Shown here in pieces: positions 58,727 to 61,171 of a DNA stretch of 61,171 nucleotides. Positions within the stretch are counted from its first letter, which is position 1; every line of letters begins with the position of its first letter. The notes under the pieces were generated by a model, which was not told where the DNA came from, did no database searches, and saw only the letters and a program-made list of their open reading frames with translations. The stretch covers positions 1-61,171 of the forward strand of contig RGZB01000007.1 in NCBI GenBank assembly GCA_010031735.1. Reading direction: 5' to 3'. The stretch comes from Pseudomonadota bacterium. Lineage in GTDB: Bacteria > Pseudomonadota > Alphaproteobacteria > Rickettsiales > RGZB01. Both the position numbers and the translations under genes were made by a program.

Positions 58727-58730
58727 AAAC

Positions 58731-59084
58731 CCCAGACGGCCTGTAAGCCGGGTTCTGTCGAAGACAATCATTCATCTGGGATGGCTGTTGCCAGCCACCT
58801 CGAGCGACCTACCCGGATAGCGAGCGCGGAAAAACGCCTGTACCGAAGTACGTGCTATCCCTATTTGGTCTTGCTCCCGGCGGGGTTTTCCCTGCCATTC
58901 CTGTTACCAGAAACGCGGTGCGCTCTTACCGCACCTTTGCACCCTTACCTACAGAGTAGGCGGTCTATTTTCTGTGGCACTATCCCTGGAGTCGCCTCCG
59001 GCGGGTGTTACCCGCCACCGTTTTTCCGTGGAGCCCGGACTTTCCTCCCTCACCTAAATGAGAGCGATCATCCAGCCGTCTGGG
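58731..59084 (-). ncRNA. rnpB: RNase P RNA, bacterial type A
   Basis: Catalytic RNA that matures tRNA 5' ends. On the minus strand the 5' part has CCCAGACGGC (59084-59075), which pairs perfectly with GCCGTCTGGG (58740-58731) to form P1. The universal GAGGAAAGTCCGGGCTCC is at about 59047-59030, and the 3' AGAACCCGGCTTACAGGCC at about 58756-58738. Length of about 354 is normal. Ends may differ by a few bases. Confidence 0.96.
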
Positions 59085-59410
59085 AGGGGCAATCTACCCC
59101 AAATACACCCTTTTCGTCCAGAATATAAGAAACAGGCCATTTCCGGGCTATTTGAGGGGGGGTATCTGTAACAAATACGTCATATGGAAATGCTATTATC
59201 TAGCTATGACTTGATTGATTCCAGTGCACCGCCTGCAAACACTACGCAGGTATCTTTGTAAAGGTGCAAAAACTGTGCGGCTGTAGCCAAACAGGGAGTC
59301 AGTCTAAGATGGATGGAGGACAAGCGGTGTCTCCATAGGGTTCGGCAAAAACCCTCTCGCCATCTCCCCGAGTCTCCACCCAACTCAGACTTGGGCTTCT
59401 GGAGGAAAAC
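59085..59410 (+). other. Intergenic region with structured leader of the alien gene
   Basis: The part near rnpB (59085-59200) is AT-rich host-like DNA that should hold the rnpB promoter on the minus strand; I see no strong match. From about 59215 the sequence becomes GC-rich. Two hairpins stand directly side by side: 59313-59322 with 59328-59336 (ATGGAGGACA/TGTCTCCAT, one bulge) and AGGGTT 59337-59342 with AACCCT 59350-59355. A smaller CCTGC/GCAGG pair lies near 59236-59254. No known riboswitch was recognised. Confidence 0.5.
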
Positions 59411-60133
59411 ATGTACCGCTGCATCCCGTTGGCGATGGTGATGGCGATGGTCTGCGCGCTGAGCAACACGAACGCGCAGGACGACGCCAAGAAGACGAAG
59501 ACGGACGACAAGGTGGTCAAGCTGGCCGGCACCGACTACAAGGTGACGAAGACGGGGCTGAAGGCCGAGTTCGGTGAGTTGAACATCGACGGCAGCACCT
59601 TCAAGACCGACAGCGACGACAACACGGTGACGTTCAAGGCGGGCAAGGCGACGGAGTGCTACTGGAAGAACGTGGCGCTCCGGGCGACGATCAACGACAA
59701 GGCGATCTCCAGCTTCCAGATGACGCAGGACCGTCAGGGCTACACGCACCTGCCGGAGCTGAGTGAGGATGACGAGGTGGCGCTGAAGCTGCTGACGGCA
59801 GCGGAGGCGCGCGTGTTCAGCGTGAAGGACGCGCTGGCCGGTTCCGGGAATATCTACTGGGGCTACATTCGCATCTGTGGGATGAGTGCGAAGGACTGCG
59901 AGCAGGCCGACGTGAAGATCGACGGCAAGACGCTGACCGTGACGGTGACGCTGAGTGAGAAGTGCGTCGTGGTGACCGACCTCGGGAACAAGACCGGGGG
60001 TGGTGAGGTGATCATCGAGGTGGACGAGGGCAAGAAGACGACGCTCGAGCCGAAGTTCGGGGTAGAACAGAAGACCGTGATCCCCGCGCGACGCGAGGTG
60101 ACGTTCAAGGTGACGTCCATCGGCAACCCGTGA
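59411..60133 (+). CDS. Secreted protein of unknown family with foreign codon usage
   Basis: 240 residues. Signal peptide about 1-22 (M-V-M-A-M-V-C-A-L-S-N-T-N-A|Q). The mature part begins with a lysine/aspartate-rich stretch, then beta-rich sequence with repeated short motifs of the T-V-T-F-K-A and T-V-T-V-T-L kind, and four cysteines (83, 156, 163, 185). GGAGG lies 6 bases before ATG. All 25 lysines use AAG and third positions are mostly C or G, unlike every flanking gene. It has its own hairpin terminator. Transfer from a high-GC donor, or an assembly join, is likely. No family recognised. Confidence 0.75.
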   Translation: MYRCIPLAMVMAMVCALSNTNAQDDAKKTKTDDKVVKLAGTDYKVTKTGLKAEFGELNIDGSTFKTDSDDNTVTFKAGKATECYWKNVALRATINDKAISSFQMTQDRQGYTHLPELSEDDEVALKLLTAAEARVFSVKDALAGSGNIYWGYIRICGMSAKDCEQADVKIDGKTLTVTVTLSEKCVVVTDLGNKTGGGEVIIEVDEGKKTTLEPKFGVEQKTVIPARREVTFKVTSIGNP

Positions 60134-60190
60134 CGAATGGTACATGAGACGAGTTAATTTCCCAAGCGCGGACGCGTGAGGGACACAGGC

Positions 60191-60220
60191 GGCCACCCGA
60201 AAGGGTGGCCGTTTGTGTTT
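60191..60220 (+). terminator. Terminator of the alien gene
   Basis: Perfect 8-base stem GGCCACCC/GGGTGGCC around a GAAA tetraloop at 60191-60210, followed by GTTTGTGTTT. Located 57 bases after the stop codon. Confidence 0.85.
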
Positions 60221-60248
60221 GTAGGTATTTTTCTTATGATGATGGCGT

Positions 60249-60264
60249 ATATGCCGAGGCATAT
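60249..60264. repeat. Short perfect inverted repeat
   Basis: ATATGCC and GGCATAT with a GA centre, 16 bases. Lies between the terminator and the parS-like site. Purpose unknown; could be a binding site. Confidence 0.5.
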
Positions 60265-60274
60265 CTTGCCTGAA

Positions 60275-60290
60275 TGTTCCACGTGGAACA
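60275..60290. promoter_or_regulatory. parS-like ParB-binding site
   Basis: TGTTCCACGTGGAACA is a perfect 16-base palindrome that fits the bacterial parS consensus TGTTNCACGTGNAACA at every fixed position; the palindrome extends one base on each side (60274-60291). Intergenic, as most parS sites are. ParB bound here would help chromosome segregation. parA and parB are not in the window. Confidence 0.8.
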
Positions 60291-60366
60291 TGTTACAGAA
60301 GTCTTAATTTCCCGGTAACGAAGCTGCAACAAAATGTAATGGCTTCCGCCAAAACAAAATATCATT

Positions 60367-60454
60367 GCAGATCACGTTAAAGTGATCCTGTTAGATCATT
60401 GCAGATCACAGCGGTGATCCTGAGGAATTATGGCAGATCACAGCGGTGATCCTG
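60367..60454. repeat. Three tandem dyads GCAGATCAC-N-GTGATCCTG
   Basis: Copies at 60367-60390, 60401-60422 and 60433-60454, with periods of 34 and 32 bases. The second and third are identical over 22 bases; the first differs in its loop (GTTAAA rather than AGCG or similar). Each has a GATCAC/GTGATC stem. They end one base before the stop codon of the convergent amidase gene. No U-tract. Confidence 0.75.
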
Positions 60455-60455
60455 C

Positions 60456-61171
60456 TTAAGAAACCTGTGCCAGCAGGTTTTTGAGTGCCGCATCGAGATG
60501 CGTGTTCCACATACCGTCGATCATCGAACCGACACCACCGAAATGGCGCTGGAACGCACGTACCACCCATTCGGTCTGGTCGTGGAAATTGCCATCCACT
60601 TTGATATCGTAGCCGTAAGACGCAAGCGCACGCTGCATCTCCATCACCGCATCGCTCTTATCGCCCTTTTTTAAAATCGGCAGGAACTTGATATCCTCCG
60701 CCACTTCCGGCCAAAGGCCAATCCCCTCGTCCGCGAGCCACTCCCAGTCGAACAGCTCACCCGGATCTTTCTTGCGCGCGGGCGCCACATCGGAGTGCGC
60801 AACCACGTTTCGTGCCGGAATCACGTGGCGTTTCAAGATGCCGTGCGAAAGCGCGATCAGCGCTTCCATCTGCTTCTCTTTGAACGGACGGTAGCCGCAC
60901 GTATGGCCGGGGTTCACCATCTCGATACCGATCGAGACATCGTTCGTATTGCTGCGGTTGCGCCAGAAGCTTAAGCCTGCGTGCCAGGCGCGCTTTTCTT
61001 CCGGCACATGGCGGTAGATGGTGCCGTCTTCATCGATCGTGTAATGGGAACTCACCTGCGCGGCCGGATCGCAGAGTTTGGACATCGCCTCTTCCGCCGT
61101 CGGCATATCCGTATAGTGGATGATGAGCATATTGATGGAGGCGGGACGGTCGTTGAAATTGGGCGAAGGAC
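60456..61171 (-). CDS. ampD: N-acetylmuramoyl-L-alanine amidase, AmpD-like, 5' end outside window
   Basis: The frame stays open to the window edge. Upstream of the first internal ATG it reads S-P-N-F-N-D-R-P-A-S-I-N, typical for the start of this family, so the gene begins beyond 61171. Zinc ligands in L-I-I-H-Y-T-D and V-V-A-H-S-D-V-A-P-A-R-K-K-D-P-G, catalytic region I-G-I-E-M-V-N-P. C-terminal peptidoglycan-binding domain from about residue 150 (G-D-K-S-D-A-V-M-E-M-Q-R-A-L). It cleaves the amide between MurNAc and L-Ala in wall recycling or remodelling. Confidence 0.93.
   Translation of the reverse strand, partial: PSPNFNDRPASINMLIIHYTDMPTAEEAMSKLCDPAAQVSSHYTIDEDGTIYRHVPEEKRAWHAGLSFWRNRSNTNDVSIGIEMVNPGHTCGYRPFKEKQMEALIALSHGILKRHVIPARNVVAHSDVAPARKKDPGELFDWEWLADEGIGLWPEVAEDIKFLPILKKGDKSDAVMEMQRALASYGYDIKVDGNFHDQTEWVVRAFQRHFGGVGSMIDGMWNTHLDAALKNLLAQVS

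Follow-up and report, generated by a model that had tools for sequence, protein, structure and literature searches.

Organization and codon usage of the locus

The window that we analysed, 61,171 nt in length, is a whole contig (C208) of a genome, G000, of 2.38 Mb in 251 contigs. Its minus strand carries rnpB, the class A RNase P RNA (58728-59083; RF00010, 328 bits), and an N-acetylmuramoyl-L-alanine amidase gene (60456-61130; PF01510) that in relatives is adjacent to rnpB by synteny. Between the two, on the plus strand, a gene at 59411-60133 codes for a 240-aa protein, predicted to be exported, with a signal peptide at about residues 1-23 and two all-beta domains of about 100 aa each, the first weakly TIG-like.

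In this gene all 25 lysines are encoded by AAG, an outcome with a chance probability of about 1e-10 given the background AAG frequency of 0.40 in G000, and GAG (14/15) and GAC (18/19) are favoured in a similar way. Its GC3 is 0.93, versus 0.47-0.76 in the other long ORFs of the window, and ranks first among 1478 ORFs taken from 1.67 Mb of G000 (mean 0.613, sd 0.079). An earlier sequence-only reading of this DNA had attributed alien codon usage to a module at 59215-60220 and had proposed a codon comparison as a check; the comparison bears the attribution out.

As for the layout, we located all the parts of the complete module that had been claimed (leader, Shine-Dalgarno sequence, gene and terminator), and in addition a promoter element, at 59191-60218. 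Precisely, an extended -10 element, TGCTATTAT, was assigned by eye at 59191-59199 of the plus strand (a consensus scan found no sigma-70 pair at the module promoter), and transcription would start near 59206-59212. A structured leader from 59213, a Shine-Dalgarno sequence GGAGGA (59401-59406, plus strand) and the gene follow, and an inverted repeat, CGGCCACCC/GGGTGGCCG, forms an intrinsic terminator hairpin at 60183-60218 of the same strand. Given the positions of the -10 element and of the leader, the earlier start of the module, 59215, is about right. Neither integrase, IS nor transposase was seen at the module edges, nor were convincing direct repeats, in agreement with what had been reported from the sequence. 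An imperfect 11-nt inverted repeat at the edges (59232-59242/60215-60225) did not stand out from other pairs that arise by chance and was rejected, and an antisense ORF of 352 aa (59204-60262) was regarded as a side effect of the high GC content of the gene.

Insertion site

Comparison with relatives places the module inside a lineage-specific insertion between amidase and rnpB, because the gap measures 1372 nt in the window, whereas in seven sampled relatives (L087, L089, L091, L093, L097, L110, L112) at most about 32 nt separate the end of the amidase gene from the rnpB start, or the two slightly overlap. The genomes searched included none of the same genus or family as G000, therefore the exact edges of the insertion cannot be drawn.

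The same gap holds a copy of a dispersed repeat of about 80 bp (60249-60333, not assigned to a strand), which contains the 16-bp palindrome TGTTCCACGTGGAACA at 60275-60290. Copies of about 60-80 bp with this palindrome, 79-91% identical, occur across many contigs of G000, among them L182 11224-11303, L210 1585-1642, L227 14127-14185, L208 14731-14790, L207 18730-18786, L161 18871-18938, L229 12132-12205 and L201 17562-17587. Chromosomal parS is a 16-bp ParB-binding palindrome, and its sites cluster near the origin. Of the "parS-like" site of the earlier reading, then, the palindrome itself stands, but it is part of a repeat dispersed over many contigs, which may be a REP-like element or may have ParB sites embedded in it. 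Just before the amidase stop there are also three GCAGATCAC..GTGATCCTG hairpin repeats (60361-60454); in L227 a similar stretch (CGCTGTGATCTGCCAT) comes after the palindrome.

Leader RNA

Folding predicted a three-way junction at 59213-59309 of the plus strand, followed by TAAGA, and two or more stable hairpins in the rest of the 5′ leader (59310-59400, plus strand); the whole leader, of about 200 nt, has a folding z of -2.0. In the junction, P1 has 10 bp, a 2-nt linker leads to P2 of 6 bp, and a 4-nt linker, AAAA, leads to P3, which contains a 2x2 loop, ends in a tetraloop and is stacked on P1.

The only other relative of the window gene that we found among 217 genomes of the order, P0001 in genome G129, has a leader that folds independently to the same three-way junction, with GAAA in place of AAAA between P2 and P3 and again with TAAGA after it. 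A covariance model was built from the single sequence of the window leader. In about 20-23 kb its best non-self match was the G129 leader, full length and exactly upstream of P0001 (13.7 bits, E = 0.065). When either leader was shuffled 3000 times with its dinucleotides preserved, the full set of features never appeared, and the linker lengths appeared in 2 to 3 of the shuffles. In the alignment of the two leaders 12 pairs are changed on both sides and pairing is 100%, versus 33-43% when the alignment is slid, although this comparison is biased towards full pairing, since the structure of the window leader guided the alignment. No Rfam match was obtained for the window junction at E up to 10, and the G129 leader region gave only miRNA and snoRNA matches at chance level. 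Neither 1.6 Mb of G000 nor the rnpB and mraZ loci that were sampled yielded a further copy of the leader. We consider the leader a good candidate for a structured RNA class represented by two sequences. In the mRNA it would form the three-way junction and the hairpins, which would stabilise or regulate the message.

Encoded protein

The protein search that had been proposed for the gene product yielded a marginal PF01833 match and a remote homologue, P0001, and no significant PDB fold match. The likeness to IPT/TIG proteins consists in residues 55-102, which score 21.4 bits against PF01833, marginally above the Pfam gathering cutoff of 20.9, and in an all-beta prediction by structure models of low confidence (pLDDT 53 and 61; domain model 61). 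The protein differs from that family in that its match takes in only some half of the Pfam model, its homologue P0001 does not score, and the models have no confident match in the PDB, none being better than E = 0.07. Searches of genome_contigs, viral_contigs, plasmids, phages and PDB returned no homologues of the window protein. It is best described as a predicted exported, two-domain, weakly TIG-like protein. Once exported, the 240-aa preprotein would act as a two-domain beta-sandwich, with a putative binding or adhesion role either at the cell envelope or extracellularly.

A homologous module in a second genome

P0001 (G129:C9:32424-33098, 225 aa) was picked up by the genome search with E = 7.5e-6 and shares 31% identity with the window protein across 128 alignment columns. 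It consists of two tandem domains of about 100 aa, each resembling the window protein's first domain. Its gene too is alien in its host, with AAG for 25 of 30 lysines versus 36% in the neighbours and a GC3 of 0.88 versus 0.71. It favours C-ending codons whereas the window gene favours G-ending ones, which suggests that the two modules come from different donors.

The G129 module adjoins mraZ, in the middle of an 83-kb contig of a separate assembly. Its insertion there is recent, because in the close sister genome G110, whose mraZ is 92% identical, rpsD and mraZ are adjacent without the module; rpsD and mraZ are also neighbours without it in G116, G142, G055 and G076. In G129 a gene for 416 aa (L004 13082-14332) lies between rpsD and the module, and G149 has a 30%-identical relative of it upstream of mraZ; the rpsD-mraZ gap thus gains variable genes.

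We also considered that the window gene could be an old resident, whose unusual codon usage is kept by selection. That it lies at nearly syntenic positions in two families of this order is in favour of such an origin, but the gene is present in only 2 of the 217 genomes of the order and in 1 of 385 genomes sampled at class level (where no further family members were found), it is missing from the sister G110, and in both hosts AAA is generally the preferred lysine codon of native genes. An old resident gene is, with these data, improbable.

Other alien units in the genome

A codon log-odds scan was run over 1.85 Mb of G000 and isolated units were picked from it by inspection. In this way at least eight further alien units (M2-M9) with native genes around them were found, on contigs C2, C180, C192, C194, C47 and C175, so that with the window module (M1) there are nine units on seven contigs. 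These further units, the conserved structured leader and the dispersed repeat around the palindrome had escaped the earlier reading. The names of the native genes around them were read from translations, except where Pfam was run. M2, a lipoprotein gene (L167 6195-6707, G000:C2), lies between the solute-binding protein gene and the permease gene of one ABC transporter; the M2 region, L167 6195-7151, may affect the expression of the transporter that it splits. M3, which codes for a secreted protein, and M4, which codes for a pilin-like protein of the DUF1559 family, lie in L217 between acyltransferase and glycosyltransferase genes, M5 (L228 5136-5627) upstream of a transketolase-like gene, M6 at L230 14625-15017, M7 and M8 in L266 between a Y-family polymerase gene and tuf, and M9, a multi-TM protein, in L258 beside the malate synthase gene.

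All the units include a leader and end in a hairpin terminator, and most, like the G129 module, have a TATAAT-like element similar to that of the window. Terminator stems of the CCACCC/GGGTGG type recur in M1, M2, M5, M7 and M8. The leaders of M1-M3 have a common motif, GACTTGAT..AGTCAGT, and a 14-nt match is present between M6 and M8. A hydrophobic N-terminus was found in 9 of the 9 isolated units, versus 28% of ORFs, and all nine are predicted to encode exported or membrane proteins. This holds for isolated units only, because two further clusters of small high-GC3 ORFs, in L161 and L164, are not exported; they are possibly another class of acquired DNA. These clusters lie between native genes (L161 10399-11355 and 16555-19400; L164 9356-10904), some of which look like pyrimidine biosynthesis genes. 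Also with native genes on either side, L162 8805-8930 is a very basic ORF of 41 aa with AAG for 10 of 10 lysines and a GC3 of 0.98.

The alternative that the earlier reading had left beside acquisition was an assembly join. We considered it as a chimera in which assembly or binning had fused planctomycete sequence to the contig by mistake. The assembly is indeed fragmented (251 contigs) and its estimated contamination is 3.35%. A chimera, however, would need two joins per unit, all of them intergenic and each pair bracketing a complete promoter-to-terminator unit, and the homologous module lies mid-contig in a different assembly. With the empty sites in relatives, the G129 module and nine bracketed units, this explanation is very unlikely.

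Donor

DUF1559 (PF07596), a pilin-like family also named SBP_bac_10, is typical of planctomycetes. M4 matches it with 2.6e-23 and has a prepilin motif at its N-terminus, and among 72,556 plasmids it is matched by Singulisphaera only. The likeness to the planctomycete pilin-like proteins, in prepilin N-terminus and DUF1559 domain, belongs to M4, which is another unit of G000, whereas the window gene is not DUF1559. The pooled codon usage of the units is best fitted, in a panel of 43 PVC/Acidobacteria loci, by several high-GC Planctomycetota loci, which beat the host.

A two-sequence profile of the window protein found no donor homologue in 392 Planctomycetota, 102 Gemmatales and 32 further PVC/Acidobacteria genomes, and the assignment of the donor phylum accordingly rests on M4 and on codon usage. 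Three weak profile matches were rejected: they came from unrelated low-GC proteins with only an ELTEGDEVAL-like stretch in common. A high-GC member of the Planctomycetota is therefore a probable donor at best.

Origin of the units and significance

Of the two origins first proposed, acquisition from a high-GC donor is supported by the empty amidase-rnpB site in relatives, by the equally alien G129 module with its absence from G110, and by the presence of at least eight more units. We think it likely, from comparison of sequences, that the window module is an autonomous, moron-like single-gene unit that arrived fairly recently by horizontal transfer from a high-GC donor, with a planctomycete as the most probable source, and that it left its neighbours unharmed. 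For G000 as a whole, serial capture of such units would be the best reading. Capture would proceed via non-specific DNA uptake and illegitimate recombination, and selection would keep complete units at harmless intergenic sites.

Each unit spans the interval from transcription start to terminator, and GC content rises at the predicted start. Because of this, what was gained could have been transcripts and not DNA fragments: donor mRNAs with RNA leaders, reverse-transcribed and inserted behind host promoters. We hold such an RNA-mediated route to be very improbable.

The units could also be the cargo of a specific mobile system, such as integron-like cassettes, phage morons or a small element with the leader RNA as mobility signal. 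The single-gene architecture is uniform, the leader RNA is common to two genera, and in both genera the homologous module lies within 2.5 kb of mraZ, with different immediate neighbours. Shared ends, target duplications and attC-like arrays were not seen, however, the leader RNA occurs just once in 1.6 Mb of G000, and searches of phages, plasmids and viral contigs gave no homologues, which makes a dedicated system rather unlikely.

If serial capture is true, an organism that its gene content marks as a probable alphaproteobacterium repeatedly acquires whole single-gene units which encode exported proteins and stem from a distant phylum, and a conserved RNA leader travels with at least one gene family. 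It would then be a natural system for how single genes cross phyla intact and for why exported proteins are favoured, it would raise the question of whether the donor is prey, host or neighbour, and it would bring with it a new candidate structured RNA as well as a protein family that has no name yet.

Comparison with known systems

The module differs from an insertion sequence or transposon in having no transposase, and its 11-nt edge repeat is at chance level. Like integron gene cassettes, the units contain single genes, acquired one by one from distant donors; unlike cassettes, they are dispersed and not arrayed, and each has its own promoter. Neither attC site nor integrase was seen around the module in the sequence or in its repeats.

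Phage morons are accessory single-gene units in prophages (PMC7067206, PMC6469090). The window module differs from them in lying on a bacterial chromosome, with rnpB and amidase as neighbours and no recognisable prophage; neither phage genes beside it nor a phage homologue or phage family of its protein were found. It resembles a moron in being one gene of foreign composition with its own promoter (assigned here by eye) and terminator, in having a product of the often exported kind, and in being set between resident genes without disrupting them.
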